A DNA stretch of 33,176 bases from a virus. This document shows positions 3,701 to 32,697 of the stretch, in pieces. Each line of letters opens with the position of its first letter. Position 1 is the first letter of the stretch. Both the position numbers and the translations under genes were made by a program. Where the stretch lies: IMG/VR virus record IMGVR_UViG_3300027969_000272, positions 1 through 33,176 of that record, one strand, 5' to 3'. The notes beneath the pieces are model-generated. The model was not told the origin of the DNA and did not search any database. It saw nothing but the letters and a program-made list of their open reading frames with translations.

Positions 3701-6700
3701 ATTACTAATCTTGCAGTAGGTATGCAATTATCAGGACCTGGTATTCCGTTTGATGCTTATGTTTATTCATTTAATCAAGAAATAAACACTATCTCAACTA
3801 TCACCATGTGTACAGGAAACCCGTTAACTGAAAACTTTGTGTTTGTTGAGGCGTATGCTACAGAGTCTGGTATTTTAAGGACTTTAACATCTACTGGAAA
3901 TTTTGTACAATTAACTAACGGTAACGGCAAAATGACTGTTGTCGGCGGCGATTGTTTAAAAGACATGTTCTATATGCGAAATGGTACAACTATTCGTAAT
4001 ATGTCTCTCTTCGGACTTAAAGGAACTATAACAGCCAACAATCAATATCAAACAGCTCGACCAACAGGCGGAGCATATACTAGTCTGGACCCGGGAACTG
4101 GGCCAAAAGATACTAGCGCATGGATTATCCGCAAGAGTCCGTACGCACAAAACTTAACGGTATTTGGTGAAGGCGCAACAGGTATTAAAATTGATGGATC
4201 ACTACACAACGGCGGCAGTAAGTCAATAGTTTCCAACGACTACACTATGGTGATAAGTGATGGTATTGGTATATGGTGTACCGGACCTGGTGCAATTACT
4301 GAAGCTATTTCAGTATTCTCTTACTATGCTTATGCCGGATACTTTGCAGAAGCAGGCGGCAGGATCCGAGCAGCCAACGGTAACAGCTCTTATGGAACAT
4401 TTGGCGTAATCAGCGAAGGTTATGATTTGTCAGAAGTACCACTAGTAGGCACAGTTAATAATCAATCACAGCAAGTTCAGGCAGGAGTTACTAGTGCGTT
4501 TGGTACAGTAGATCAGTTACTAAAATTAAATTATAGCAATGCTGGTTCTAATTATTTTTATCCAGCAACTAACATGTTAAAAAGAAGTAACGAATTTTTA
4601 ACTAATTGGACTAACGATTCTTATTTGTCATTTACTAAAAATAACACTGCTCCTACAGGATATACTGAAGCATGGTTACTATCCGGATCGACGAATACAC
4701 CCGGAACTGGATATGTCCAGCAAAGTATTACAGTAAACCCGGCAGGGTATACATATACTAATGTTAGTGGAACTACCCAAGACGGCGCCCCTGGTAACGG
4801 AGCAACATTTGACATTACGGTTACACCAGCAGGATATGTAGCAACAGTAAATGTTGCTGGCACTTTATATCAAACTGGTAACAACATTTTAATCAAAGGA
4901 TCGGTACTTGGCGGGTTAGATACTACCAACGACCTAACTATTGTAGTAGGTAACTTATCAGGAACTGGTATTTCTACTATTTCTGCATCTTCTGGAACAG
5001 CCCCAGCCGGCAGCAATCAAAATTATACATTCAGTATGTATGTATATGACGGTGGAACATCTGCTACCTTAGATATGCAAGCTGTATTTTCTGGTACAAC
5101 AACAGTTACTAGCGGCATTAGTTACAATATCTCAAGTAAAACTATTACTCCGTATTCAGGTACTAGTATTTTGAGTAATGCAAACGGTGGCACTTTGCCT
5201 GTAAACTTTAAAGCACAGAAAACTTTAGTTGCTGGGTGGTATAGAGTTTGGTTTGCTGTTAATGATAGTACAGGTGTTAACAATACACTAACCTTTAAAT
5301 TCTTCCCACAAGGTGCAAATGCACCAATAACTAACACATATTCAATTATATATGGCGCACAACTTGAAATATCTGATACAGATTATACACCTAGAGTATA
5401 CTTAGAAACAACAACTAATCAGTTTACTGCTTATGCAAATTATCAAGTTGTTGGAGCAGGCGCGGGCGCATTATTATCCGGAGATGAAATAAGAAGTCGA
5501 TCAGTTTTTAACGTTCGAGTTACTACAGATTCTAACGGATTTACAGGTGGCGCTGGATATGGTAGTAGTTTAAATACTGCGGCTGACGGCTCTTTAAATA
5601 CAATACGTCTTGCGGCTACTGATCAAGGAATTTTCAACTATTTAGGTATGCGAGTTTTCATTGGCGGCGGAACCGGTGCAGGACAGTACGGATTTGTTAC
5701 ATATTATAACAATTCTTCTGGAGTTGACGCTAATGGAATTACTACAAAAACAGCCTTAATAGCCAAGGAGACAATTGATCCGGTCGGAGTAATTTCTACA
5801 ACTTATAATGCTACTCCTGCCAACAACTTAATTACACTAACCGGGCAAATTGATATTAGTCAATGGTATATTAACCAAGCAGTTCAATTTATACCTACTT
5901 ACTATACAACAACAGTAACAGCTACATCTGTTGACACAGTAATTGCCACTGGATCTCTTGGAGGCACTGTAAATACCATAAGTGTTCCTACAGCTAGCCT
6001 TGCTCTTAACATGCCAATTACATTTGGAACAGGCGATCTTAATGTAAGTCCGGGCTTTTTATACTATATTACACAAATTGACTATATTGCTGAAACAATT
6101 CAAATTGCAACTAGTATAGCAGGAACTGCTATACAACTAACTCCGGTTGCATCAACATCTCAGGTAATAACATTTCCACGATACTCAGGACATATTAAGG
6201 CTCCAACGGCTAATATGGTCCCAAACATTAATATACAATTCACTGGTGTAGCTCTTGGTGGTGTAGCTCTTGGCTCAACTTATTACATAAGTGATATTAT
6301 AGATGCAGATAATTTTACAGTATCAGCAAATAGAACAACACTAACATCTACAACAACCATCGGTGGTACTACTAATACTGTTGCGGCAACTACAACTTCT
6401 CTAGTTCCTTGTAATACCGTAGTATTTTCAGGAATAATTTTTGATGCGGCCATACAACCGGGAACAACTTATTATATTAGTAATATTGTTGACGCAGGTA
6501 GTTTTAATCTTACTACAAGTATTATACGAGTCGATGCCACATCAACTACGTTTAGTACAAACTTAATTCAAATTTCTGATACATCTGGATTTGTAGTTGG
6601 TCAACCTATAATTTTTAGTGGCATTTTAGCAGGAACAACATTTGGTAATATTCAACCTGAGACTGTTTATTATATTCTAACTATTAATGCGCTCAATGAT

Positions 6701-20754: not shown

Positions 20755-21876
20755 ATGGCACGTTATAATTCAGTTATCCCAACAGCGACGGCAGCATCAG
20801 CAACGTCTATTACTTCGCCAAGTTCAGGATCTTTAGTTACATTCACAGGAACTACCTATTCTGTAAGCATTGGCGATCCTATTTATTATGCTGGCCTATC
20901 GCAGATTTTTTATAATTCGGCTAGCGGAATAATAACTTTAACTTTTTCTAGTTTAGGTGCCGGGGTATTTGTTGGCCCTGGTGCTAGCGGTACTACAAGC
21001 CAAACAGTAACACCTGGAGCTACAGTTACACTTTATTCAGACGGAACTAATTGGGTAGTACTTGGTGCCAGCGGCGGCCCAATATCAGGAAGTACAGGAA
21101 CGTTTAGCGGTAACGTTACACTTACCGGAGCAACACCGACACTTAACTTCAACAATACAGCACCGACTATTGCAACTAATAACTCCGGGAGCACTGCAAG
21201 TGTATTTGACAGCAATGCTACTACAGTAAATGCATTTGGTGCAGGAACATCTGTTACAATAGGTGCCACTACTGGTACATTAAATCTACGTAACACTACA
21301 ATTACAGCAGCCAATGCTACTACACTTAATTTAAACGGTACTAGTCCTAGCATTGCTACATCAAGTACTGGAACCGGCAGTGTGTTTAATACTAATATCG
21401 GTACAGGAAACTTATTTGGATCTGCTACAACAGTTAACCTTGGTGCAGGAGCCTCAACTATTACAATAGGTGCTAGCAGTAGCGGTACAGCTACAATAAG
21501 ACTAACAACTGCTAGTACAACAACTAGTACTGGTGCGTTAGTAGTAGCAGGCGGCCTTGGTGTTGCAGGGCAAGTTACCGCGGCAACACTAGTTGAAACG
21601 TCAAGTATTGCGTTTAAGCAAAATGTAAATCCAATTACCGATGCGCTAGATTCTGTACTACAGTTAGTTGGTGTTACATACGATCGTAAAGACGGCTCAC
21701 GTACAAATGAAGCAGGTTTAATTGCAGAAGAAGTTAATAAGATACTTCCAGATTTGGTAAGTAAAGATAAAGACGGAAATGCATATGGTATTCAATATAC
21801 CAAACTAACTGCATACTTGATTGAAGCTGTTAAGACATTGAAACAAGAAGTTGATTTTTTAAAGAATAGAGGATAA
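20755..21876 (+). CDS. Tail-fibre protein with C-terminal S74 intramolecular chaperone (373 aa)
   Basis: The ATG at 20755 follows an AGAGAG ribosome binding site. Residues 1-120 form a beta-rich head. Residues 128-252 contain two tandem repeats with short TLNL/TIGA strands, typical of trimeric beta-helical fibre shafts, and a VVAGGLGVAG linker follows near 262-273. From residue 283 there is a peptidase S74 (endosialidase-type) chaperone: SSIAFKQNV, then GLIAEEVNKILPDLV, GIQYTKLTAYLIEAV and a final LKQEVDFL helix. In this family the domain helps the trimer fold and is normally cut off just before the conserved Ser; this is established for the family but not shown here. The protein is probably a short receptor-binding fibre. 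Confidence 0.85.
   Translation: MARYNSVIPTATAASATSITSPSSGSLVTFTGTTYSVSIGDPIYYAGLSQIFYNSASGIITLTFSSLGAGVFVGPGASGTTSQTVTPGATVTLYSDGTNWVVLGASGGPISGSTGTFSGNVTLTGATPTLNFNNTAPTIATNNSGSTASVFDSNATTVNAFGAGTSVTIGATTGTLNLRNTTITAANATTLNLNGTSPSIATSSTGTGSVFNTNIGTGNLFGSATTVNLGAGASTITIGASSSGTATIRLTTASTTTSTGALVVAGGLGVAGQVTAATLVETSSIAFKQNVNPITDALDSVLQLVGVTYDRKDGSRTNEAGLIAEEVNKILPDLVSKDKDGNAYGIQYTKLTAYLIEAVKTLKQEVDFLKNRG
21136..21510 (+). repeat. Two tandem shaft repeats in the S74 fibre
   Basis: Residues 128-180 (PTLNFNNTAPTIATNNSGS ... SVFDSN ... TIGATTGTLNLRN) and 189-252 (TTLNLNGTSPSIATSSTGT ... SVFNTN ... TIGASSSGTATIRL) align along their length, with one spacer between them. This is an intragenic duplication of a shaft unit. 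Confidence 0.7.
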
Positions 21877-22332: not shown

Positions 22333-23331
22333 ATGCCAATAATTAAAAGTTTAAGAAAAAGACACGATCAAAAAGAAACTGAAAAAGTTTCTTATGCACC
22401 CCCATTAAAAATAACCGGTGGTGATAAAGTTTATACCGCAGGCGGATATACAGTACATTTATTTTTAACGCCAGGCGAGCACCAATTTAAAATTGAACCA
22501 ATTCAACCACTTGCAAAAGAAGCGATGGGACTAATTGTAGATAGAACTATGGAAATGTTAGTAGTTGGCGGTGGCGGCGCAGGCGGACAATATTCAGGCG
22601 GCGCAGGTGGTGGTGAAGTATTATATATTAGTCGAAATCTTGGAACTGGAACATTTCCGCTAAACGTCGCGGCGGCAGTAGCTGGCGACAATGGTTATTG
22701 GTCTTCGGCAAAATGCGGAAATGTTACAACTGCATTTGGCGAAACTGCTAAAGGTGGCGGCTCAGGTCGCGGATCAGATGATACAATTCCTGCTAACCCA
22801 TACACACCTGTTGCTAACGGTGGCGCAGGATCTTCAAGAACACCTGGTTACGGTGGTCAACAAGGTACATCAGTGGGAACTGGAGTTACTAGACACGGCG
22901 GCTTCCGTGGTGGTCAAGAAAACAACCCAGTTAACGATTCTCCTAACTATCCAGGAAATGGTGGTGGTGGTGCTGGACAAAGTATTACTGGTAATACCGG
23001 CGGTGGCGGTAATGGCGGCCCTGGTGGTTCTGGGGTTGCATACAGTCTAACCGGAACTTCGTTCTATTGGGGAGGAGGAGGCGGCGGCCAAACATACTAC
23101 GGCGGCCAAGGCGGAGCAGGCGGCCTAGGTGGCGGAGCGGCTGGGTCAGGTGGTAACGGTGGGAACACCGGCGGCACTGGATTTAATCCGGGCGGTAACA
23201 CTAGCGGCTCGAGCGTCGGAGCAGCCGCCGGTGCAAATACTGGCGGGGGTGGCGGAAGCGGCAACGGACAAAACGGCAGTGCTGGCGGCGCAGGCGGAAG
23301 CGGCATTGTTGTAGTAAGATATTCAACATAA
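22333..23331 (+). CDS. Glycine-rich adhesin-type virion protein (332 aa)
   Basis: The ATG at 22333 follows CGAGG. Residues 1-40 are basic, residues 38-57 form a beta segment (YTAGGYTVHLFLTPGEHQF), and from MEMLVVGGGGAGG (residue 73 on) the chain is largely Gly with Ser, Asn, Ala and Thr up to a closing GIVVVRYST strand. This matches the general layout of glycine-rich domain proteins in marine phages and recalls the polyglycine-helix sandwich known in gp38-type tail-tip adhesins of T-even phages. The Gly turns (GGGGAGG, GGGGGGQ, GGGGGSGNG) would form exposed loops that vary with receptor. It is the last gene of the fibre block, 6 bases before the next start. The adhesin role is inferred from composition and position. 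Confidence 0.7.
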   Translation: MPIIKSLRKRHDQKETEKVSYAPPLKITGGDKVYTAGGYTVHLFLTPGEHQFKIEPIQPLAKEAMGLIVDRTMEMLVVGGGGAGGQYSGGAGGGEVLYISRNLGTGTFPLNVAAAVAGDNGYWSSAKCGNVTTAFGETAKGGGSGRGSDDTIPANPYTPVANGGAGSSRTPGYGGQQGTSVGTGVTRHGGFRGGQENNPVNDSPNYPGNGGGGAGQSITGNTGGGGNGGPGGSGVAYSLTGTSFYWGGGGGGQTYYGGQGGAGGLGGGAAGSGGNGGNTGGTGFNPGGNTSGSSVGAAAGANTGGGGGSGNGQNGSAGGAGGSGIVVVRYST

Positions 23332-23337
23332 ACTCAT

Positions 23338-23745
23338 ATGCCTCTTTATAAGACGAATAAAGATATTTTCAAAGACTTCGGAGAAGAAGTCTTTGATTAT
23401 CGATTTAATACCGAAACCCGATATAAGCTAAAAACTAAAGATTGGGATTATAAAAGAGAATTAACAGTTGATGATGTTGAAATATGGGAAACATTATACG
23501 AGGACAGTTGGGGATTGGGAGTGTATGCGGCTTATGAACCATTTGCTGAATTTTATATGATAAAATATGCAGACAGCATAGGTAATCATGTGTATGATAC
23601 TCACTACGGTGCAGGCGCACAAAATAAAATTATGCAATTTATGATAGCAAACAATATACCTTTCAATTTACATGATGTATATGTTGAAGAAGATAAAACT
23701 TGGTTGTACTTTTCAGAACCTGAAAAGAAAATCATTATTACTTAA
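23338..23745 (+). CDS. Conserved phage hypothetical protein, paralogue of the 24211-24555 gene (135 aa)
   Basis: The ATG at 23338 lies 6 bases after the adhesin stop, without a strong ribosome binding site. The protein is aromatic-rich and acidic. Its core at residues about 35-75 has DWDYKRELTVDDVEIWETLY, then GVYAAYEPFAEFYMIKY, followed by a Y-G motif (THYGAGAQ). The same core in the same order occurs in the minus-strand gene at 24211-24555. Similar small proteins occur in T4-type marine phages without known function. There is no membrane segment or catalytic motif. A 9-bp inverted repeat lies within codons 12-19. Confidence 0.75.
   Translation: MPLYKTNKDIFKDFGEEVFDYRFNTETRYKLKTKDWDYKRELTVDDVEIWETLYEDSWGLGVYAAYEPFAEFYMIKYADSIGNHVYDTHYGAGAQNKIMQFMIANNIPFNLHDVYVEEDKTWLYFSEPEKKIIIT
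23371..23394 (+). other. Perfect 9-bp inverted repeat with a 6-base loop
   Basis: AAAGACTTC (23371-23379) and GAAGTCTTT (23386-23394) are exact reverse complements separated by GGAGAA. The structure lies 34-57 bases into the coding region and no U-run follows it, so it is not a standard intrinsic terminator. It could form an RNA hairpin at the boundary between fibre genes and the next genes, or be a chance result of the codons. Confidence 0.4.
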
Positions 23746-23955: not shown

Positions 23956-24216
23956 ATGACAGCAGATAATAATTTATCTATTCCGTTATTTGACAACAAA
24001 AACTTGTTAGTACCAATGTTTATTAAATCAAAAAGATGCATTGTGGATGCATTTAAAGAAGAAATAATAGAAAGTTCTAACAAGCAAATATGTTTTGAAA
24101 AACTTTTTCAGAAAAAGTTTAAAGCAGTACTAACACCAAGTTATCCCAACACCTGGCAACAAATAGAGTTCACAGACCAAAAAAACAAAACTATTTTTTT
24201 ATTAACCTGGTTATAA
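23956..24216 (+). CDS. Small hypothetical protein (86 aa)
   Basis: The ATG at 23956 immediately follows the TAA of the upstream gene. The protein is basic in its second half, with two Cys, a helical middle (CIVDAFKEEIIESSN) and a beta-like end (WQQIEFTDQKNKTIFLLTWL). No family was recognised and no signal peptide is present. Its final codons TTA TAA form the palindrome TTATAA, which also supplies the stop of the converging minus-strand gene, a 6-base tail-to-tail overlap. The direct coupling to the 61-aa gene is the only clue to function. Confidence 0.55.
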   Translation: MTADNNLSIPLFDNKNLLVPMFIKSKRCIVDAFKEEIIESSNKQICFEKLFQKKFKAVLTPSYPNTWQQIEFTDQKNKTIFLLTWL

Positions 24217-24555
24217 ATTTATAGAATTTATTGGTAAAATAATTCCACACTGATCCAAATAACTTTTTAAATCATAGTGTGACTGTGGTCCGTAAAATGT
24301 TTTAAATCTTCTAGAGTCTACAAAATCAAAGTAGACTAACAGGTAAAATTCAATATATGGATTCCAAGAAGAATAGACGCCAATATTATACGGCTCTGCA
24401 TATAACTCCTCCCATATTTTTACATCATCTACTGTAATCAGTTGAGAATAGTCCCAATCAACTGATATAATTGGCGACGAGTTATTTTGAATGCATACAT
24501 CACTTGCCGTTCCGTTATTTGAAAACAAATGATCTCTTAGCACTAGCTTATTCAT
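24211..24555 (-). CDS. Conserved phage hypothetical protein, minus-strand paralogue of the 23338-23745 gene (114 aa)
   Basis: The ATG is at 24555-24553, with GAGGG about 10 bases upstream on this strand. The core DWDYSQLITVDDVKIWEELY, followed by IGVYSSWNPYIEFYLLVY and TFYGPQSHYDL, aligns with the 135-aa protein encoded about 600 bases away on the other strand. It is the only minus-strand gene between base 1 and 30893, convergent with the 86-aa gene and divergent from the oxygenase array. It lacks the first ~20 residues of its paralogue and ends soon after the shared core. Function is unknown; an inverted gene duplication is the simplest origin. Confidence 0.75.
   Translation of the reverse strand: MNKLVLRDHLFSNNGTASDVCIQNNSSPIISVDWDYSQLITVDDVKIWEELYAEPYNIGVYSSWNPYIEFYLLVYFDFVDSRRFKTFYGPQSHYDLKSYLDQCGIILPINSINL
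24212..24223. other. 12-bp palindrome TATAAATTTATA at convergent gene ends
   Basis: The sequence equals its own reverse complement and overlaps the shared stop codons of the two converging genes. On each strand it reads TATAAATT, one base from the T4 late promoter consensus. It may only reflect AT-rich composition. Confidence 0.3.
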
Positions 24556-24581: not shown

Positions 24582-24589
24582 AATAAATA
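24582..24589 (+). promoter_or_regulatory. Possible T4-type late promoter for the oxygenase array (AATAAATA)
   Basis: AATAAATA differs at one position from TATAAATA. It lies in the 41-base gap between two divergent genes, 8 bases before the ATG of the first oxygenase, which lacks a clear ribosome binding site. If used, the transcript would be nearly leaderless. The position in the only divergent gap supports a promoter somewhere here; the exact motif is uncertain. Confidence 0.3.
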
Positions 24590-24596
24590 TTTTTGT

Positions 24597-25223
24597 ATGC
24601 AAACTCCAAACAGAATACAACCTTGGTTTCCAACTAACATATTCTACGAAGAGATTCCCAACGAGCTACTAATATCAAAATTAACTGATAAAGCCTTGGG
24701 GTTAAAAAGAATACATAACAGTAGTAGTGCTACCTCCTGGAGATGTAGCACATTTACAACTTTAGACTTGTACACTTGGGAGACAGATAACGATCCTAGT
24801 GTATTAAAACTAATAGAAATATGTGCTAGTCGTGTAGGAGATTTCGCTCAATCTTTTTCTACTAGTTTGTTAGATAGCTATAAGTTAACATGTACCGGAT
24901 TTTGGTTTAATGTTGCAGAGCCCGGTGCATATCAAGAATATCATCAACATGCTAGTAGTCATTTTAGTGTTTGCTACTACTTAAACGTTCCAAAAAATTC
25001 TGGGAATATTGTTTTTAAAAGTTTTGAATCGATGTTTGACATGTGTCCTTTACCTATACCGGATCAAAGTGTAAATGCAAATTCCTATAAAACTGTATCT
25101 TACACACCGTCGTTGGGATCACTTGTAATTTTTAGATCAAATGTCTTACATATGGTTGAACAAAATCTCAGCACTGAAAATAGAATTAGTATTTCGATGA
25201 ACTTTAATCTAATTAAAAAATGA
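24597..25223 (+). CDS. 2OG/Fe(II) oxygenase-like protein, HxH type, gene 1 of array (208 aa)
   Basis: The frame is open from 24471, but a start there would overlap the divergent gene. The ATG at 24597 gives the N-terminus IQPWFPTNIFYEE, matching the LFPTPI-type start of the TIGR02466 / 2OG-FeII_Oxy_5 family. Core: GFWFNVAEPGAYQEYHQHAS (His116, His118), a FSVCYYLNVP strand, GNIVFKS, then SLVIFRSNVLHMV (His185) and ENRISISMNF (Arg196, likely 2OG carboxylate contact). The usual Asp of HxD is His118. The family normally acts as an iron-dependent oxygenase using 2-oxoglutarate and O2; the substrate is unknown. The Ser-Asn-Val before His185 departs from the FPSW seen in its two relatives in the array. 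It overlaps the next gene by ATGA. Confidence 0.75.
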   Translation: MQTPNRIQPWFPTNIFYEEIPNELLISKLTDKALGLKRIHNSSSATSWRCSTFTTLDLYTWETDNDPSVLKLIEICASRVGDFAQSFSTSLLDSYKLTCTGFWFNVAEPGAYQEYHQHASSHFSVCYYLNVPKNSGNIVFKSFESMFDMCPLPIPDQSVNANSYKTVSYTPSLGSLVIFRSNVLHMVEQNLSTENRISISMNFNLIKK

Positions 25224-25888
25224 TACATTTTCCTGCAATTTGTATAGATAATTTTTATAGTGACCCAGACGGTATTAGAAACTGGGCACTGTCTCTTGAT
25301 TATAAACCAGCACCCGAAGGCCAATGGCCGGGACTTCGATCATCGCCTTTACATCTAGTTGATCCTAAATTTTTTCAAGATTTTTGTCATAAAATATTTT
25401 CCTTATACTTTGACACAGAAAATACTGATATAAAATGGGTAGTACATACACAATTTCAACTTATTGAGCCTTATGATGCAGACCCTAAATCAAAAAAAAA
25501 TACAGGATGGATACACTATGATGACGATACTATCTTTGGGGGACTTATATATTTAAATCCTGAGATAGATGTTGACTGTGGAACATCCGTATTTAGACAA
25601 GATAAAGAATCAATATCTAGTGCTGATTTTAAACAAGCAAAACAAACTTTTTATAGATCAAAAAGATTTTTAAACTACGATAATATTTTAAGTGAGCACA
25701 ACAGTAATTTCACAGAAACTATAGTTTATAAAAATTTGTACAATAGATTTATAAGTTTTGACGGTGAAACAGCACATAAAGCAAATAGTTTTTTTACAGA
25801 AATTCCTAGACTAACTCAAGTTTTCTTTGTTAATAAATGCGAAACTACATCATTGTGGCCTTTAGCTAGACATCAGAGGTATCTCTAG
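25220..25888 (+). CDS. DUF6445-like 2OG/Fe(II) oxygenase-fold protein, gene 2 of array (222 aa)
   Basis: It starts in the ATGA overlap with gene 1. The N-terminus (FPAICIDNFYSDPDGIRNWA) and the PGLRSSPLH segment resemble the DUF6445 type of the double-stranded beta-helix oxygenase group. Metal ligands: His99 and Asp101 in GWIHYDDD, a GGLIYLNP strand, GTSVF, and distal His186 in FDGETAHKANSFF; Arg197 in RLTQVFF would contact 2-oxoglutarate. All ligands are present, so an active enzyme is likely. Family members are often found in phages and marine bacteria with unknown substrates. The stop lies 1 base before the next ATG. Confidence 0.75.
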   Translation: MIHFPAICIDNFYSDPDGIRNWALSLDYKPAPEGQWPGLRSSPLHLVDPKFFQDFCHKIFSLYFDTENTDIKWVVHTQFQLIEPYDADPKSKKNTGWIHYDDDTIFGGLIYLNPEIDVDCGTSVFRQDKESISSADFKQAKQTFYRSKRFLNYDNILSEHNSNFTETIVYKNLYNRFISFDGETAHKANSFFTEIPRLTQVFFVNKCETTSLWPLARHQRYL

Positions 25889-25889
25889 T

Positions 25890-26513
25890 ATGGATGTAAT
25901 AATGGAATTTGCTACTCCTATAGGAATGTTTTATTCTGATGAAGATTTAGGTCTAAACACATACAATAATGTTTTGAAAATTATAGAAAATAAAGATGAA
26001 GATAATTTTTCTTACCATGATATTTCAAAAACTACACCAGACGATCTACATTTAAGATCAGAGTTTTTAGATTTTTTAAAATTTGTAGAAGATAAAACAA
26101 AAACATTTACTGAAGAAGTGTTAGGGGTTAAGAAGTCTGATTTAGCCATAAGCGGAATGTGGAGCAATGTACATTCGCCCGGATCAAAGCATCACACTCA
26201 TCAACATCCAAATTCTTTTATTTCGGGAGTTTTTTATCCGTTATGTCCAGATTGCGAGGACATTGGAAACATTATTTTTGTAGATCCAAGACAAGCAAAA
26301 AACATGGTCCATGCAGATTTTTTTAAGACATCGTGTATATCAAATAGAAATATCTGGGTAACTCCTAAGGCAGGATTGTTATTAATTTTTCCTAGTTGGC
26401 TTGAACACCGGACTGACCCTTTTATAGGTAACCCACAAGATAGACGAGTAGCTATAAGTTTCAACTATCAATTGAAAAAATGCGATCAAAAAACGATGAG
26501 AATTTATGAATAA
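25890..26513 (+). CDS. 2OG/Fe(II) oxygenase, TIGR02466/2OG-FeII_Oxy_5 type, HxH, gene 3 of array (207 aa)
   Basis: The ATG at 25890 follows AGAGG; a second ATG at 25902 is possible and would fit the FATPIGMFY start of the family equally well. Core: MWSNVHSPGSKHHTHQHPNS with His104 and His106, SGVFYPL, GNIIFVDP, then LLLIFPSWLEHRT (His173) and DRRVAISFNY (Arg186). This is the most typical member of its family in the array and is clearly paralogous to genes 1 and 7. The iron site would use HxH instead of HxD, as seen in all three relatives here. It overlaps the next gene by 8 bases, consistent with coupled translation. The substrate is unknown. Confidence 0.85.
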   Translation: MDVIMEFATPIGMFYSDEDLGLNTYNNVLKIIENKDEDNFSYHDISKTTPDDLHLRSEFLDFLKFVEDKTKTFTEEVLGVKKSDLAISGMWSNVHSPGSKHHTHQHPNSFISGVFYPLCPDCEDIGNIIFVDPRQAKNMVHADFFKTSCISNRNIWVTPKAGLLLIFPSWLEHRTDPFIGNPQDRRVAISFNYQLKKCDQKTMRIYE

Positions 26514-27132
26514 GCAATTGATTATACCGGCAGAAAAATCATTCATAGGTGCATGGTTTATGGAAGACATGTCCTTATGTGATGACATGATTTTTTATTT
26601 TGAAAATCATCCCGATAAACGCGATGGTGTAATGTTTAGACACGGATCTTTAATGGTGGATAAAGAAGAAAAAGATTCTAAAGATATTGTATTAGATGTT
26701 TCGGAGGAGATTACTAAGCGATACGTTAATGAACTACAAAAGATTTTAGATTTATACAAAATAAAATATGTTAGATCGGAAGTAACAGGAAAGTTTGGTA
26801 TAGAATCTATAAATGTACAAAAATATGATCCCAGAGGTGGTTATAAATTTTGGCATACTGAAAGATCCGACGGATACCCGCCAGGTGTATATAGGCATTT
26901 GGTCTTTATGACATATTTAAATGATGTAGAAGACGACGGTGAAACTGAATTTTATTACCAGCAAGTTAAAATAAAACCCCAAAAAGGACTAACACTAATT
27001 TGGCCATCCGATTGGACCCATACGCACAGGGGTATACCATCTATGACTCAAACCAAATATATCGCTACAGGTTGGTACACTTTCTTAAATAGAGAGCCGA
27101 GTAACAAAGTGCAAGAAAATAACAGTATTTAG
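26506..27132 (+). CDS. Prolyl-4-hydroxylase-like 2OG/Fe(II) oxygenase, HxE type, gene 4 of array (208 aa)
   Basis: The ATG at 26506 lies inside the end of gene 3. The C-terminal half is a P4H-type double-stranded beta-helix: FWHTERSDG (His117, Glu119), RHLVFMTYLND, GETEFYY, KGLTLIWPSDWTHTHRGIP (His174 distal) and TKYIATGW (Lys184). His174 to Lys184 spans ten residues, with Pro at +4, as in prolyl 4-hydroxylases. Glu119 replaces the usual Asp. It is closely related to gene 9 at 29693-30325 (shared WHxE and PSDWTHTHRG). The C-terminal 10 residues are polar. It is predicted to hydroxylate a protein or small molecule; the target is unknown. Confidence 0.85.
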   Translation: MNKQLIIPAEKSFIGAWFMEDMSLCDDMIFYFENHPDKRDGVMFRHGSLMVDKEEKDSKDIVLDVSEEITKRYVNELQKILDLYKIKYVRSEVTGKFGIESINVQKYDPRGGYKFWHTERSDGYPPGVYRHLVFMTYLNDVEDDGETEFYYQQVKIKPQKGLTLIWPSDWTHTHRGIPSMTQTKYIATGWYTFLNREPSNKVQENNSI

Positions 27133-27141
27133 AGGAAAAAA

Positions 27142-27771
27142 ATGGCAAGAATGGTTAATGGATTATTTACTGGGGACATTGCTCCCTCATCGGTAATCTG
27201 CGGATGTATAGCTATATACAAAAATTTGTGGCCTAACCCAGACGAAACTATCGATCTGATTAATTATCAATGCGACGGATTCAACGGTGAAGTCTTTTAC
27301 CAAAAAGCAGAAACGTTTGGCCGAGGTGACAATCAAACGCATAGAACCAACCGAGTATTATCTCTTACCAATCGAGCAGATGTTAGTGATAATAAAGCAT
27401 TGCAAAGCATTCATAATCAATTTTACATGATGTTGTTGGCCACAACTATTCCATATGCTAGAAAATTTAATATTGTTGAAGGGCTCTGGCACGAGGGATA
27501 TAACGTTTTGAGATATGATAAAGGTGAAGAATACAAAATCCATTATGATTCTCCGACTAGTATGGGGCGAGTGATGTCAGCAGTATGTTATCTCAATGAT
27601 GATTTTGAGGGTGGCGAATTAGAATTTCCCTACTTCGGCGTAAAAATTAAACCAGAAAAGGGAATGTTATTATTATTCCCATCTAACTTTGCCTATGCAC
27701 ATATATCACATCCGGTTACAAAGGGTTCTAAATATGCATTGGTTACATGGATTAGAGATAGAGAATTATAA
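27142..27771 (+). CDS. Prolyl-4-hydroxylase-like 2OG/Fe(II) oxygenase, HxD type, gene 5 of array (209 aa)
   Basis: The ATG at 27142 follows AGAGGA, the strongest ribosome binding site in the array. The C-terminal catalytic half has NVLRYDKGEEYKIHYDSP (His134, Asp136), SAVCYLNDDFEGGELEFP, KGMLLLFPSNFAYAHISHPV (His187) and GSKYALVTW (Lys197). The ten-residue His-to-Lys spacing and Pro at +4 are those of the P4H family, so all catalytic residues are present. The N-terminal half, with RVLSLTNRAD and a helical LQSIHNQFYMMLLATTIPYA segment, also follows the P4H layout. It has no signal peptide and so acts in the cytoplasm. It is one of the best candidates in the array for a true peptidyl hydroxylase. 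Confidence 0.85.
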   Translation: MARMVNGLFTGDIAPSSVICGCIAIYKNLWPNPDETIDLINYQCDGFNGEVFYQKAETFGRGDNQTHRTNRVLSLTNRADVSDNKALQSIHNQFYMMLLATTIPYARKFNIVEGLWHEGYNVLRYDKGEEYKIHYDSPTSMGRVMSAVCYLNDDFEGGELEFPYFGVKIKPEKGMLLLFPSNFAYAHISHPVTKGSKYALVTWIRDREL

Positions 27772-27789
27772 ACATACTGGGACTTGAAT

Positions 27790-28344
27790 ATGGAACATGA
27801 TTGGATAGTTTGTGATACTCTTTATAATTTGACCGATTGTATAGAAATAAAAAAAACTTGTATTAACAACATCGATGAAAACATCGTCGACGGGCCAGCA
27901 CATAAAATTGTTAAAACATCCGAAGTTAAATTATTAAATTATAGACATGTTAGTGATGCTTTAAAACCAGCTCACGAGTTTGCCTTACATATTAATAAGA
28001 ACTATTTTGGTTTAGATATTCATAATGTGTGTGACGGAGACGTAGTTTTACTCAATATCTATAATTCAAAAAATAAAGCGTCATATGAGTGGCACAAAGA
28101 TGTAGCATCTCCTACCCAATTATTTGATTTTAAACTGACAATGTTAATGAATTTGTCAGATGAATATTATGAAGGTGGTAATTTACAAATTTTTACCACT
28201 GGCGGAGAGCAAACAATTGATAGTTTTAAACAACCAGGAGCTATTTGTATCATTCCATCATGGGTTCCGCACAGGGTAACTAATGTTACCAGTGGAGTGA
28301 GAACTACCCTTTCTTATTTTTACACTGGGCCTAAGATCAGATGA
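27790..28344 (+). CDS. PKHD-type 2OG/Fe(II) oxygenase, HxD, gene 6 of array (184 aa)
   Basis: A TTG at 27784 is in frame, but the ATG at 27790 has CTGGGA about 7 bases upstream and is chosen. Core: LLNIYNSKNKASYEWHKD (His102, Asp104), FKLTMLMNLSDEYYEGGNLQ, then GAICIIPSWVPHRVTNVTSG (His161) and VRTTLSYFYTGP (Arg171). The PHRVTxVTSGxR pattern is that of PKHD-type hydroxylases, related to the PiuC/YbiX group. Length is slightly shorter than usual because the C-terminal extension is missing. The stop overlaps the next start (ATGA). The substrate is unknown; active-site residues are complete. Confidence 0.85.
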   Translation: MEHDWIVCDTLYNLTDCIEIKKTCINNIDENIVDGPAHKIVKTSEVKLLNYRHVSDALKPAHEFALHINKNYFGLDIHNVCDGDVVLLNIYNSKNKASYEWHKDVASPTQLFDFKLTMLMNLSDEYYEGGNLQIFTTGGEQTIDSFKQPGAICIIPSWVPHRVTNVTSGVRTTLSYFYTGPKIR

Positions 28345-28925
28345 TACAAGATAATAATCATTTACAACTTTTTTACAGTTTTCTTGACAACACTATTTTA
28401 GATATTGATGTAAAAGATCTAACAGATTATTGTTATTTTGTTAAGGACAACAATAAAGGTAATGTAATAAGCAACATAGGAGGGTGGCAAAGTAGTAATT
28501 TAGATCCCACTATACCAGAACTTAGATCGTTAGTCTCATGTATTCTAGAAAGAGCTGAAAAACTAATATTAGAATACGACCTTCCTAAAACTTTTAGAAT
28601 TAATCCTATCTGGATTAATATTAATAAGAAACATGACTACAATATGATGCATGAACACCCAAGGAGCCTAATATCCGGAGTATTTTATGTAAAAACACCT
28701 GAGGACTGCGGAGACATACTGTTTACAAATCCTAATACATCAATCCAACATTATATTGATCAGTCTAAGCTAGAAAAAAATAATCCATTTAATTCATATA
28801 GTTGGGCCATAACCCCAACTGAAAACACATTAATAATGTTTCCTTCTTGGCTACCACATCATACCCTCCCAAATTTGTCAGATGAAGATAGAATCTCAAT
28901 AGCATTTAATATAAGTGAAAACTAG
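28341..28925 (+). CDS. 2OG/Fe(II) oxygenase, TIGR02466/2OG-FeII_Oxy_5 type, HxH, gene 7 of array (194 aa)
   Basis: It starts in an ATGA overlap with gene 6. Core: IWININKKHDYNMMHEHPRS (His104, His106), LISGVFYVKTPEDCGDILF, NPNT, then LIMFPSWLPHHTL (His173) and EDRISIAFNIS (Arg184). It is clearly paralogous to gene 3 and gene 1, sharing HxH and the FPSW-L-x-H segment with gene 3. The N-terminal part has a GGWQSSNLD segment that also matches the family. The function in the cell is not known for any close phage relative. One base separates its stop from the ATG chosen for the next gene. Confidence 0.85.
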   Translation: MIQDNNHLQLFYSFLDNTILDIDVKDLTDYCYFVKDNNKGNVISNIGGWQSSNLDPTIPELRSLVSCILERAEKLILEYDLPKTFRINPIWININKKHDYNMMHEHPRSLISGVFYVKTPEDCGDILFTNPNTSIQHYIDQSKLEKNNPFNSYSWAITPTENTLIMFPSWLPHHTLPNLSDEDRISIAFNISEN

Positions 28926-28926
28926 C

Positions 28927-29691
28927 ATGTTTGATATTTTTATTAAAAAAAGAGAAGTTATTCTAGATTGTTTTACAAATTTAGGAACAGTTTATGATAC
29001 GGCTAAAATTAATAATGCCTCACGTTTTATACCAGGCTGGTGGAAAGACACACCTAAAATACAAGAAGGATGGCCTACAATTAAAAATTGCAGAGCTGTC
29101 AAAGATTATTATATACATGGGATAGTAATCCCTTCTTGGTTTGAAATGGAAATTAGTTTTTTTGGTGATAGCAGTGAAGACGGAAAAGAAATAAGCATTA
29201 AATATTCAAATGATAATGTAGATATAACTAAATCTCATACTCATTATCAGTTTGATAAATTTACGTTACATAACGGAAAAAATCTAAAGATACTATCACC
29301 GTGGGCTTTTAAAACTAAAGAAGATATAAAGTTTGTATGGAGCCACCCTACTTGGAATACTAGAGAGTCAATGCCTTATCTAGCAGTATTACCCGGAGTA
29401 ATAGATTTTAAATATCAACATAATGTTGCTATCAATTTCTTAATGATGAAGCCAATTGAACCGTTATCAGTAACGATTGAACCATTAGAACCATTAGTGA
29501 TGTTACATCCAATGACTGAAAAACGTGTTGTAGTAAAAAATCATTTAGTTTCTGATAATGAGTATAAGCGATTGTTTTCCATCCAAGATTTAGTTTTAAA
29601 TAAAGACGTTAACGATGAAATTAAAGAATACAATAAGAAAAAATCCCTTACAAAAAAAGTAGAAGCAATGTCTTGCCCTTTTAAACACTAA
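28927..29691 (+). CDS. Conserved phage protein of unknown function inside the oxygenase array (254 aa)
   Basis: The ATG at 28927, 1 base after the previous stop, is preferred; a GTG at 28915 is possible and would overlap gene 7. The N-terminal third has LDCFTNLGTVYDTAKI and SRFIPGWWKDTPK, the middle has a PSWFEMEISFFG strand and a LSPWAFKTKEDIKFVWSHPT segment, then VLPGVIDFKYQHNVAINFLM. The C-terminus is basic and ends CPFKH. Similar proteins occur in T4-type cyanophages and pelagiphages, from memory of their typical WWKDTPK/SPW/PTWN pattern. No His-x-Asp ligand set is seen, so it is not an oxygenase. The C-terminal PLTxK-like MTEKRVVVKNHL part may bind a partner. Confidence 0.75.
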   Translation: MFDIFIKKREVILDCFTNLGTVYDTAKINNASRFIPGWWKDTPKIQEGWPTIKNCRAVKDYYIHGIVIPSWFEMEISFFGDSSEDGKEISIKYSNDNVDITKSHTHYQFDKFTLHNGKNLKILSPWAFKTKEDIKFVWSHPTWNTRESMPYLAVLPGVIDFKYQHNVAINFLMMKPIEPLSVTIEPLEPLVMLHPMTEKRVVVKNHLVSDNEYKRLFSIQDLVLNKDVNDEIKEYNKKKSLTKKVEAMSCPFKH

Positions 29692-29692
29692 T

Positions 29693-30325
29693 ATGAATAT
29701 AATAGACAACTATCAATTTGAAAACTTTATCGGCATTTTTGACAATGTCATCGATGATCAAGATTGCCAGCGCATAATTAAACACTTTGAATTAGTACAA
29801 TCTTCAAAGTTAAGCATGTCTAGACAACAGATAAATCCTCAGATCAAAAAAAGTCAAAAAGACACAGACAACTATTTTTTATCTGGCACTTCTGGATTTG
29901 CTAATCCGCAAGTTGAAGATATAATTTCCTCGGCAGACAGTTGGATATTTGAAAATTTTAAAACAGCAGTTATGTCTTGTTATAATTTGTATGCAGATAA
30001 ATTTGGTGTATTTAACGATTTGGGGAAACATGCAATTTCAGGATCAATTAAAATACAAAAAAGTGAAAAAAGTCAAGGTTATCACATGTGGCATTGTGAA
30101 AACGACTGTATTAAAACTGGCAACAGGGTTGCTTTGATAATCTTATATCTTAATGATCTAGATGAAGGCGGTGAAACAGAATTTTTATATCAATCGCTGA
30201 GAATTGCTCCAAGTAAGGGTAGAATGATAATATGTCCTTCAGACTGGACTCATACCCATAGAGGAAATCCCCCTCTTAAAGACGAAAAATATATAATCAC
30301 TACATGGATTGAATTCATAGAATGA
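29693..30325 (+). CDS. Prolyl-4-hydroxylase-like 2OG/Fe(II) oxygenase, HxE type, gene 9 of array (210 aa)
   Basis: The ATG at 29693 lies 1 base after the upstream stop. The catalytic half shows YHMWHCENDC (His134, Glu136), ALIILYLNDLDEGGETEF, GRMIICPSDWTHTHRGNP (His189) and EKYIITTWIEF (Lys199), with the P4H spacing of ten residues from His to Lys and Pro at +4. Glu136 replaces Asp as in gene 4, and both share PSDWTHTHRG, so these two are duplicates now separated by four other genes. The N-terminal half differs from gene 4, with FIGIFDNVIDDQDCQRII being typical of phage P4H-like enzymes. The last bases overlap the next start (ATGA). Confidence 0.85.
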   Translation: MNIIDNYQFENFIGIFDNVIDDQDCQRIIKHFELVQSSKLSMSRQQINPQIKKSQKDTDNYFLSGTSGFANPQVEDIISSADSWIFENFKTAVMSCYNLYADKFGVFNDLGKHAISGSIKIQKSEKSQGYHMWHCENDCIKTGNRVALIILYLNDLDEGGETEFLYQSLRIAPSKGRMIICPSDWTHTHRGNPPLKDEKYIITTWIEFIE

Positions 30326-30897
30326 ACAATTTTTTAGAAATCAAAGAAGCAATTCCAAGAGATAAATTTAATAGAATACAAGATTTTATTTTATCAGATT
30401 CTTTTCCGTGGTTTTATACTGGTACAACCATAAACAACTCGTCTGCTGAAACTAACTTTAGCTTTTTTCATAGTGCATATCATTATGAAGATGACTATTC
30501 ATTTATAGGTAAAGACCTTGCAGACATAGTTACAGAATGTATGTCTGCAACCAATGCTAAAATTAACAATCTTTTAAGATTGAGGTTAGGCCTTATAACC
30601 AAAACCCCAACTAAGGTAGTGCATACTCCTCACATAGACTTTTCATTTCCTCATCACACCGGCTTACTATATTTTAATAACGCAGACGGTGAAACTTTTT
30701 TGTATGATGAAAAATACGATACTAGTATAGATAAAAAAGATTATGATAAGTTTGTAAGATCTAAAGAAAATACAATCTTAACAAAAGCAGTTCCGGAAGA
30801 AAATAAAGTATTTGTATTTGACGGATTGCATTATCATTCTAGTTCTAGCCCAACAATCTCTGATCGAAGAGTAGTTCTTACATTTAACTATATCTAA
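30322..30897 (+). CDS. 2OG/Fe(II) oxygenase-like protein, HxD type, last gene of array (191 aa)
   Basis: It starts in an ATGA overlap with the preceding oxygenase. Core: VVHTPHIDFSFPHHTG (His104, Asp106), LLYFNNADGETFLYDE, then a hydrophilic loop, NKVFVFDGLHYHSSSSP (distal His172, or His170) and DRRVVLTFNYI (Arg182 or Arg183). The double-stranded beta-helix order is complete. Similar proteins are common in marine T4-type phages and labelled 2OG oxygenase; the substrate is unknown. The gene ends tail-to-tail with the minus-strand NUDIX gene and shares 4 bases with it. No transcription terminator fits in between, so transcripts from both sides may overlap. Confidence 0.75.
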   Translation: MNNFLEIKEAIPRDKFNRIQDFILSDSFPWFYTGTTINNSSAETNFSFFHSAYHYEDDYSFIGKDLADIVTECMSATNAKINNLLRLRLGLITKTPTKVVHTPHIDFSFPHHTGLLYFNNADGETFLYDEKYDTSIDKKDYDKFVRSKENTILTKAVPEENKVFVFDGLHYHSSSSPTISDRRVVLTFNYI

Positions 30898-31328
30898 ATT
30901 AGTTCAATTAAGTCAAATACAGTTTGCAGTTTAGTACGAATGATCTTACTGCTGAAACTATTGCGTAGTCCTTGATGTAGAGGTTTAGGAGCATGGTCTA
31001 TAGTTGCCCAGGCCCAACCTGCGTGTTCATCACTTAATACAGGCACAAACTCCGAGTCAATAACACATAGATAAGTGTGAAAGTTGAAGACAGTATCGTT
31101 ACTTACAAATGTCTCAAGAGGAATTGTTTTAAGAATAGTGGGCATAAGACCTATTTCTTCAACTATTTCTCGTTGCAGTCCTTGCCAAGCTGACTCACCT
31201 TCTATATTAGTGCCGCCAACTAGACCCCATGTACCTGCGTGTTTACCTTCTGCTTTTTGTAGCAGTAGGAAACGTCGAGTTGATTTAGCGTAAAATAAGG
31301 CGCCACTGCATACAATCTGTTCTTTCAT
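30894..31328 (-). CDS. NUDIX hydrolase (144 aa)
   Basis: This is a MutT-like pyrophosphohydrolase that would cleave a nucleoside diphosphate linked to another group (NDP-X). The Nudix box G-x5-E-x7-REUxEExGU is perfect at residues 39-61: Gly39, Glu45, Arg53, Glu54, Glu57, Glu58, Gly60, so metal binding is intact. The strand before it (WGLVGG) and a final WATIDHAP segment fit the MutT/ADP-ribose group, but substrate cannot be told from sequence. Length is normal for a single-domain NUDIX protein. It begins 13 bases after the gp15 stop on the same strand, so it is probably co-transcribed with tail genes. In phages, such enzymes clean nucleotide pools or recycle NDP-sugars; either is possible here. 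Confidence 0.9.
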   Translation of the reverse strand: MKEQIVCSGALFYAKSTRRFLLLQKAEGKHAGTWGLVGGTNIEGESAWQGLQREIVEEIGLMPTILKTIPLETFVSNDTVFNFHTYLCVIDSEFVPVLSDEHAGWAWATIDHAPKPLHQGLRNSFSSKIIRTKLQTVFDLIELI

Positions 31329-31341
31329 GTATGTACTTATT

Positions 31342-32697
31342 TTAGATTACTAAGCGCCACTGTCCTTTTGAGTACTCACCTTCAAATGCACGAGTCCATT
31401 CCGTATCCTCGTACTTGTATTGTACACCAGTGCGAATGTTTGTAGTATAAACAACGCCTTCGGGCAATACCAATCTAGACCATACTGTGCCGTTAAATTC
31501 AACAATACTGTTAGCAGGTGCTGTAAAATTATTCCATGCTGGTGTATTTTCGGGTATTTCGTTTAGTAACAACACACGCTGACCTTCTAAGGGAGTTCCT
31601 GGATTGTAAGTTTCAGGATTAACAATGGCATCAACAGTGCCCCAGTTGTTGCTATTACGTGCAGGCCCAGCAATAACTGTATTTGTATTGTAAGTATCTC
31701 GATCAAATGTAATACTTAATCTAGTTTCATCTATGGGATTAAGTGCTACTGTGCCTATAACTTCGTTGCCGTTAGGTTGTATTAAAAACACCTGACTACT
31801 TCCTGCTTTAAAATTAGTATACTGATCTAATAATACACGCCAGTTAAGATCATTACCGTGTTTTTTCCACAGCGTATCGCCAATGTCCGGTAATGCTTCT
31901 ATAATTGCGCTGGGGTCTAATAATTCTGCGTAGTAGTTACCGCCTTCATTAAAGACAAAAATATTAAATCCGCCAATTGTAACAGTCTCTTGTGTTTCAA
32001 ATGTATATTCGTTATCGTGTATATTCATTACGATATCATGAATAACACCAAGACGTTTGACCTTACTAGGAGCACTGATCCAAATAGGAGTTTCTAACGT
32101 CAGTGTACCTACATCTATTTCGCTTTCTGTGCCCTGCGGAACTTGCCTACTGGTAAATGTAATGTCAGTTAGCTCAACTACGCTTAAACTAGTCCAGTCT
32201 ACAAAGTTGTCTGTGGTCTGTAATTCAAGACTGGGATTAAACATCATCATGATCTGTTCCATGATCTGTAGTTTCTGATCTGTATTAGTTGACCATATGT
32301 CAGCTTTGACTGTCAGCTTGTAGGGCGTAGGCATTAGGCGTTCTACTGTATAACCACTACCTTGATTTTGACTGTAACCTAAAAATACTGGAGGGTTTAC
32401 AGTATTATCATAGACTTTTTCACGCTCACGAATATGCACTTTGCTGATATGTGTGGCGTCAGCTAGTCGACTACGATCCAATTGCACGTTGCTGATATAA
32501 ACAGCAATACGTGGGGCACTTGGCATTTTATTTTCACTGTTGCCGTTTAGAATACTGGCAACTTGTCGACTCATATCGCCGTACAATACAGGTACAACTG
32601 TCTGCTTACCGCTACCGTCTTGGTATTTGTAACCGCTTAACATGCGGATTAGTTGACCAACATAGCGTCGAATCTGTCCATCGTAAAAATATTGCAT
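31342..32697 (-). CDS. 15: Tail sheath stabilizer and completion protein, gp15-like (451 aa)
   Basis: The product of this gene caps the contractile tail and joins it to the neck in T4. The N-terminus YFYDGQIRRYVGQLIRML and the following VVPVLYGDMSR match T4 gp15 (YFYNSSFRRY ... VPITYAS) in order. Later segments also fit: APRIAVYISNVQLDR, PTPYKLTVKADIW, QIMEQIMMMFNPSLEL and LETPIWISAPSK. The gp15-like part covers about residues 1-225. The C-terminal half (about 226-451) is extra compared with T4 gp15 (272 residues), beta-rich, with PNGNEVIG and VVEFNGTVWSRL-like strands. The ATG overlaps the upstream stop by one base (TAATG). Homology was recognised by eye; the extension may be typical for marine relatives. 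Confidence 0.8.
   Translation of the reverse strand: MQYFYDGQIRRYVGQLIRMLSGYKYQDGSGKQTVVPVLYGDMSRQVASILNGNSENKMPSAPRIAVYISNVQLDRSRLADATHISKVHIREREKVYDNTVNPPVFLGYSQNQGSGYTVERLMPTPYKLTVKADIWSTNTDQKLQIMEQIMMMFNPSLELQTTDNFVDWTSLSVVELTDITFTSRQVPQGTESEIDVGTLTLETPIWISAPSKVKRLGVIHDIVMNIHDNEYTFETQETVTIGGFNIFVFNEGGNYYAELLDPSAIIEALPDIGDTLWKKHGNDLNWRVLLDQYTNFKAGSSQVFLIQPNGNEVIGTVALNPIDETRLSITFDRDTYNTNTVIAGPARNSNNWGTVDAIVNPETYNPGTPLEGQRVLLLNEIPENTPAWNNFTAPANSIVEFNGTVWSRLVLPEGVVYTTNIRTGVQYKYEDTEWTRAFEGEYSKGQWRLVI

Follow-up and report, generated by a model that had tools for sequence, protein, structure and literature searches.

Nine 2-oxoglutarate oxygenase-fold genes beside the glycine-rich fibre-tip gene of a T4-like phage fragment: a candidate side-chain modification island

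What would a phage do with nine 2-oxoglutarate (2OG)/Fe(II) oxygenase-fold proteins encoded side by side? The question is raised by the IMG/VR virus record IMGVR_UViG_3300027969_000272, whose full 33,176 bases are the window of this analysis. At positions 24597-30897, this window carries ten tightly packed open reading frames (ORFs), p1 to p10: nine 2OG-oxygenase-fold genes and p8. We favour, with moderate confidence, the reading that this block is an oxygenase/halogenase-type island modifying side chains of the adhesins at the fibre tip. An original prediction, made from the sequence alone, had described nine 2OG-like genes here with one other between the seventh and the eighth, and ORFs, profiles and fold agree with it; the dedicated modification system that it proposed is still the best reading of the block. 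The ten proteins are the following:

24597..25223, + strand: p1, 2OG-fold oxygenase of PF13759/TIGR02466, HxH
25220..25888, + strand: p2, DUF6445 (PHROG label 'minor coat protein'), prolyl-hydroxylase-type 2OG fold, HxD...H...R
25890..26513, + strand: p3, PF13759/TIGR02466, HxH
26506..27132, + strand: p4, PF13640 (prolyl 4-hydroxylase (P4H)-like), HxE
27142..27771, + strand: p5, PF13640, HxD; prolyl and lysyl hydroxylases are the closest solved structures
27790..28344, + strand: p6, PF13640, HxD; an alternative TTG start 6 bases upstream is possible
28341..28925, + strand: p7, PF13759/TIGR02466, HxH; closest solved structures 2rg4 and 3bvc
28927..29691, + strand: p8, phrog_7084, dUTPase-like (beta-clip) fold, not an oxygenase
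29693..30325, + strand: p9, PF13640 (P4H-like), HxE; prolyl 4-hydroxylases are the closest solved structures
30322..30897, + strand: p10, phrog_274 (PHROG label 'DNA endonuclease V'), invariant HxD...H...R

The profile searches suggested in the original prediction matched PF13759/TIGR02466 to p1, p3 and p7 (E = 2e-20 to 4e-26), PF13640 to p4, p5, p6 and p9 (E = 1e-9 to 2e-16) and DUF6445 to p2 (E = 8e-10); p1, p3 to p7 and p9 pass the Pfam cut-offs. The suggested models did not suffice for p10, which is matched by PHROG_274 alone (E = 3e-34), with PF13640 at just 0.07. In a profile-profile alignment, the phrog_274 profile, in which H, D, H and R are invariant, is related to the PF13640 profile with 96% probability. 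A direct profile comparison between DUF6445 and PF13640 gave no link (1.3%), and against PDB sequences the phrog_274 and DUF6445 profiles found chance matches only. DUF6445 is tied to the 2OG families through phrog_274 (89.5% in profile comparison) and through its fold. The AlphaFold2 model of p2 (predicted local distance difference test (pLDDT) 86.7, predicted template modelling score 0.85; input alignments made of the window and IMG/VR rows only) has as top structural matches a Pseudomonas prolyl hydroxylase (Z = 13.6), OGFOD1 (Z = 13.2), PHD2 and a viral collagen prolyl hydroxylase. From the family matches, the profile link of p10 and the fold of p2, it follows that nine of the ten block proteins are 2OG-fold proteins. 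Structure models had also been proposed as a check: that of p2 bears out the 2OG fold, and that of p8 proved dUTPase-like.

The original prediction credited all nine proteins with a complete first metal motif. This holds for the HxD of p2, p5, p6 and p10 and the HxE of p4 and p9, six proteins which also have the distal H and an R or K; it is too loose for p1, p3 and p7, which read HxH...H...R. The HxE and HxH variants had gone unnoticed. The H-x-H is invariant in 15 of 15 aligned homologues and also occurs in PDB 2rg4 and 3bvc; judged from these sequences, it is a feature of the PF13759 family. The closest relatives of p5 and p9 by sequence, and of p2 by fold, are P4H/PHD enzymes, and the closest solved structures of these three are mostly protein hydroxylases (P4Hs, PHD2, LH3, OGFOD1 and the viral collagen P4H).

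The gene junctions are as originally described (4-base ATGA overlaps at p1/p2, p6/p7 and p9/p10, an 8-base overlap at p3/p4 and otherwise short gaps), and the ten genes probably form one operon. Conservation in related phages, which had been named as a supporting sign, was found in the locus L006, from a different sample: it has the ten genes in the same order, with 74-94% amino acid identity, plus one extra phrog_274 gene. The ratio of non-synonymous to synonymous substitution rates between the window and L006 is 0.03-0.19 across all ten genes, which denotes purifying selection. Given this matching order and the selection on all ten genes, the block is not an assembly artefact.

The length of the block had been considered exceptional, a view that is not supported: many genes of this kind are common in cultured marine T4-like phages. 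The cultured cyanophage syn9 has nine consecutive 2OG-type genes, gp45-gp53 (in order: PF13759, DUF6445-like, PF13759-like, PF13759, JmjC_2 (gp49), PF13640, phrog_274, DUF6445, phrog_274), and published counts per phage genome reach 9 (PMC9146016), 10 (PMC9964418) and 24 (PMC9602691). In the syn9 run, record names such as 'DNA endonuclease V' and 'minor coat protein' conceal members. In RefSeq cyanophage records (syn9, S-WAM1, S-RSM4 and others), these names, given to phrog_274 and phrog_1644 respectively, label 2OG-fold proteins; 'ferrochelatase' (phrog_3531) may be another misnamed case. Besides syn9, such genes are grouped in S-CREM1 (eight 2OG-annotated genes and one JmjC, consecutive), S-RSM4 (eight clustered genes, counted by profile) and S-SM1 (six); shorter or similar runs are found in these three, S-RIM44, S-SSM7 and two pelagiphages. 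Viral scans seeded with p7 and p2 gave few loci. Cyanophage 2OG oxygenases known since the Sullivan 2010 set (PMC3037559) and from later sets (PMC9602691, PMC9964418, PMC9146016) belong to the same families as the island, but they are described as dispersed host-metabolism or DNA-repair genes, whereas the island studied here is a fibre-linked run. The families and their abundance were already known, and the new point is the fibre-side position of the runs. No publication linking phage 2OG genes to fibres was found in the open-licence PMC literature, and those four papers do not describe the halogenase partnership or the misnamed members.

This position was missed by the original prediction, as were the halogenase-bearing relatives. 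With genes for giant structural proteins, an S74 fibre protein and a Gly-rich protein of 332 amino acids, then the block, a NUDIX hydrolase gene and one for a tail sheath stabiliser of the T4 gp15 type, the window is identified as part of a T4-like phage genome. The genes around the block are:

20755..21876, + strand: tail fibre protein with an S74 chaperone domain
22333..23331, + strand: Gly-rich (30% G) fibre-tip-like protein, phrog_2295, the proposed substrate class
30894..31328, - strand: NUDIX hydrolase, between gp15 and the island
31342..32697, - strand: gp15-like tail sheath stabiliser, anchoring the far side of the island

Their order (S74 fibre, Gly-rich, oxygenases, NUDIX, gp15) fits a layout of fibre-linked islands seen elsewhere. 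When records were read by eye, the run adjoined fibre or fibre-tip genes in 13 isolates (syn9, S-RIM44, S-RSM4, S-SM1, S-PM2, S-SSM7, S-CREM1, P-RSM6, S-WAM1, S-SZBM1, P-TIM40, HTVC008M and EXVC030M), and several of these islands extend as far as gp13-gp15 at their opposite end. In S-RIM44, a fibre gene is followed by genes for three Gly-rich proteins, two halogenases, the oxygenases and then gp13, gp14 and gp15; S-RSM4 has fibre, Gly-rich, oxygenases and gp13-gp15. In the IMG/VR contigs L007, L026 and L068, oxygenase runs at the same place or nearby are accompanied by two to four halogenases, the four of L007 being confirmed by Pfam. The halogenase of S-SRM01 has a fibre gene on one side and, on the other, a gene annotated as gp37-gp38 adhesin tip complex. 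Flavin halogenases are present in many islands, not in all: the runs of the window and of G001 (the 76.8-kb contig of L006) have none, and neither do the islands of S-RSM4, S-SM1 and EXVC030M. In the halogenase-rich island of L007, positions 3809-4861 encode a 2OG-like domain fused to DUF6817.

The association was quantified with phrog_2295, the family of the Gly-rich protein of the window, as a marker chosen independently of the enzymes. Within 12 kb of this marker lie 47 of 127 2OG genes (20.0 +/- 6.7 expected, p = 2e-4) and within 6 kb 6 of 10 halogenases (0.84 expected, p = 6e-4); 12 of 20 halogenases are at most 6 kb from a 2OG cluster (2.4 expected, p < 1e-4). Expectations were obtained by circular shifts, which keep the clustering within genomes, and the p values ignore kinship between genomes. 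In bacteria, 80 loci with p4 homologues had neither a halogenase nor an oxygenase of PF13759 or DUF6445 within 8 kb, so the clustering of oxygenases and halogenases is a phage feature.

The composition of the Gly-rich proteins differs with the presence of a halogenase. Per 1000 residues, those with a halogenase in their locus contain 16.7 Trp and 27 Pro, whereas those without contain 7.0 Trp (p = 0.006) and 54 Pro (p = 0.007). Their Gly and Tyr contents do not differ, nor do Trp (p = 0.25) and Pro (p = 0.11) in the other proteins of the same loci; among loci with at least 3 oxygenases, p = 0.025 for each of Trp and Pro. Such a contrast is what would be expected if peptidyl-Trp were halogenated and if, in halogenase-free islands such as that of the window, peptidyl-Pro were hydroxylated.

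The genes, folds and motifs, their conserved location and co-occurrence, the purifying selection and the Trp/Pro correlation can be joined in a single scenario. The nine small oxygenase-fold proteins, mostly of the branch that includes prolyl, lysyl and protein hydroxylases, would be made together with the structural genes, presumably late in infection. Their targets would be side chains of the Gly-rich proteins at the tail-fibre tip, encoded directly upstream, which they would hydroxylate or oxidise in another way, so that this marine phage would modify its own fibre-tip proteins before or during assembly. In related islands, added flavin-dependent halogenases would act on Trp of the fibre-tip proteins; p8 might be an accessory protein. 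As an outcome, the receptor-binding surface would be diversified or stabilised. We give even chances to this scenario as a whole, in which late expression, enzymatic activity, action on proteins, the choice of the fibre tip and a benefit for adsorption are inferred steps. No evidence was found for enzymes working in series, one of the options originally proposed, and multiple sites on the fibre-tip proteins would be a better fit. More tentatively, marine T4-like phages may possess a combinatorial hydroxylase and halogenase system dedicated to the chemical diversification of the Gly-rich, receptor-binding tip of their own tail fibres; VirX1-type halogenases and many cyanophage 2OG oxygenases would then have their native role in it.

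Known systems offer partial parallels. The T-even gp38 adhesins (S16/PP01 type; PMC12892980), likened here by description, are Gly-rich tip proteins adjoining fibre genes, as in the window. The P4H of PBCV-1 (vCPH, PDB 5c5t) and the bacterial P4Hs acting on collagen-like proteins share the fold family of the island enzymes and set a precedent for prolyl hydroxylation of Gly-rich or collagen-like viral proteins; yet vCPH is a single enzyme, whereas the islands have up to nine in a run, from several families and often with halogenases. One paper, which notes collagen in tail fibres, describes viral P4H use as cryptic (PMC9301287). In cyanophage Syn10, the active site of the flavin-dependent halogenase VirX1 is open, and its native substrate is not known (PMC8407142). 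VirX1 belongs to the Trp_halogenase family, with relatives in the syn9 island; unlike Syn10, the window itself has no halogenase. We know of no hydroxylation or halogenation in the known gp38 adhesins.

Counts of 2OG oxygenases and halogenases in cyanophages go back to 2010, with no substrate known for them. Their fibre-side location and the restored misnamed members point to the fibre proteins of the virion as the place to look for modified residues. If the fibre-tip scenario is true, phages would tune host recognition by chemistry besides sequence, and there would be an explanation of what a widely studied biocatalyst natively acts on.

Several points weigh against the modification of fibre tips. 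No modified residue and no activity are known, and the HxH of p1, p3 and p7 leaves the chemistry of these three undecided. The islands of HTVC008M and EXVC030M are fibre-linked, yet their runs have no halogenase. The marker test spans just 10 genomes, and the 18 isolates are mutually related and were reached through similarity matches; the count of 68 of 140 2OG genes within 12 kb of fibre blocks read by eye (28.1 expected) is biased, these blocks having been partly found via the enzymes. The Trp/Pro contrast is post hoc and comes from 27 loci, some truncated, with p values that ignore kinship, and the Gly-rich proteins of S-RIM44 are Trp-poor despite its two halogenases. Finally, the 2OG genes of S-SCSM1 lie among replication genes, away from fibres, and P-SSM2 and P-HM1 show no large 2OG cluster. 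Because of these last cases, fibre linkage is not the sole role of phage 2OG oxygenases. Both P-SSM2 and S-SCSM1 have many 2OG genes, scattered over the genome; in S-SCSM1 (L193, 64000-112000), genes for the clamp, a DNA polymerase, a recombinase and a helicase lie in between them, which points to other roles for some of these oxygenases.

Other scenarios may explain the islands. One possibility, which we find rather unlikely, is that glycans or small molecules are the substrates (polysaccharide of the host surface, sugars added by the phage or metabolites of the host), the proximity to fibres reflecting a shared host-interaction region. The 2OG genes of S-SSM7 and S-SCSM1 are indeed mixed with sugar and lipopolysaccharide-type genes, the island lies by the neck genes, adjoining the g15-g18 region that is hyper-variable in cyanomyoviruses (PMC2984593), and the published view of 2OG genes is one of host reprogramming (PMC9602691, PMC9964418). 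Yet, the runs of the window, syn9, S-RSM4, S-SM1 and S-RIM44 have no annotated sugar genes, and the preponderance of protein hydroxylases among the closest solved structures also speaks for protein substrates. Alternatively, the insertion site could be a tolerant one at which a pool of quickly exchanged genes has expanded, their functions being mixed and their targets not shared. The block has a GC content of 0.31, compared with about 0.40 outside; this suggests a separate origin and would suit such a pool, as would the differing order and content of the islands, the low identity of block members with each other and the 2OG genes scattered elsewhere. This explanation seems distinctly unlikely: each gene is under purifying selection, the same partners (halogenase, p8 family, DUF6445 and phrog_274) recur at the same place across islands, and the Trp correlation would not be expected. 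It has also been proposed for cyanophages (PMC3037559) that 2OG enzymes consume host 2-oxoglutarate and so tune NtcA nitrogen signalling; this is improbable here, as one metabolite needs no nine divergent enzymes, and the fibre linkage and the halogenase partners would be left unexplained. Least probable of all is the modification or repair of DNA bases by TET/JBP or AlkB-like activity, for which the replication-gene setting in S-SCSM1, older DNA-repair proposals (PMC9146016) and a weak Tet_JBP match of p5 could be invoked. Against it, the window has its island in the tail region, the p5 match is below cut-off and far weaker than its PF13640/P4H match, and 'endonuclease V' is a carried-over label.

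The remaining member of the block, p8, stands apart. In a structure search with its model (pLDDT 74.5), trimeric dUTPases were matched (Z = 10.2, 128 residues, 2.8 A), and the top 50 rows are dUTPases throughout; this dUTPase-like fold, another feature that the original prediction had overlooked, rules out p8 as an oxygenase. It is not classed as a dUTPase proper either, as the family does not consistently keep the catalytic Asp of motif 3: the residue after G-[IV]-[IV] is D, N or E/T depending on the member. Homologues of p8 come after a halogenase in syn9, S-CREM1 and P-TIM40. A tblastn search of phages with p8 gave no match; with the L007 homologue as query, it reached haloviruses. The family (window 28927-29691; L094 8857-9693) also occurs in haloarchaeal tailed viruses (HRTV-8 gp36, HF1).

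Compared with phages at the DNA level, the window matched short pieces only. Promoter and terminator scans of the window stayed at chance level, and no full TATAAATA late promoter was found in it. One short element precedes the block:

24583..24589, + strand: ATAAATA, late-promoter-like (weak), 7 bases 5' of the p1 start codon

ATAAATA is depleted in the window (1-33176), with 3 occurrences against 17 expected, and two of the three (10056 and 24583) directly precede gene starts on the coding strand. The NUDIX hydrolase gene between gp15 and the island is also found in L006, L018, L022, L026 and L068. Directly ahead of the island, two paralogous small proteins in opposite orientation (23338-23745, + strand, and 24211-24555, - strand; 37% identity over 70 amino acids) flank two tiny genes, an arrangement also conserved in L006, and an inverted repeat of 35 nucleotides (80%) falls within this pair.

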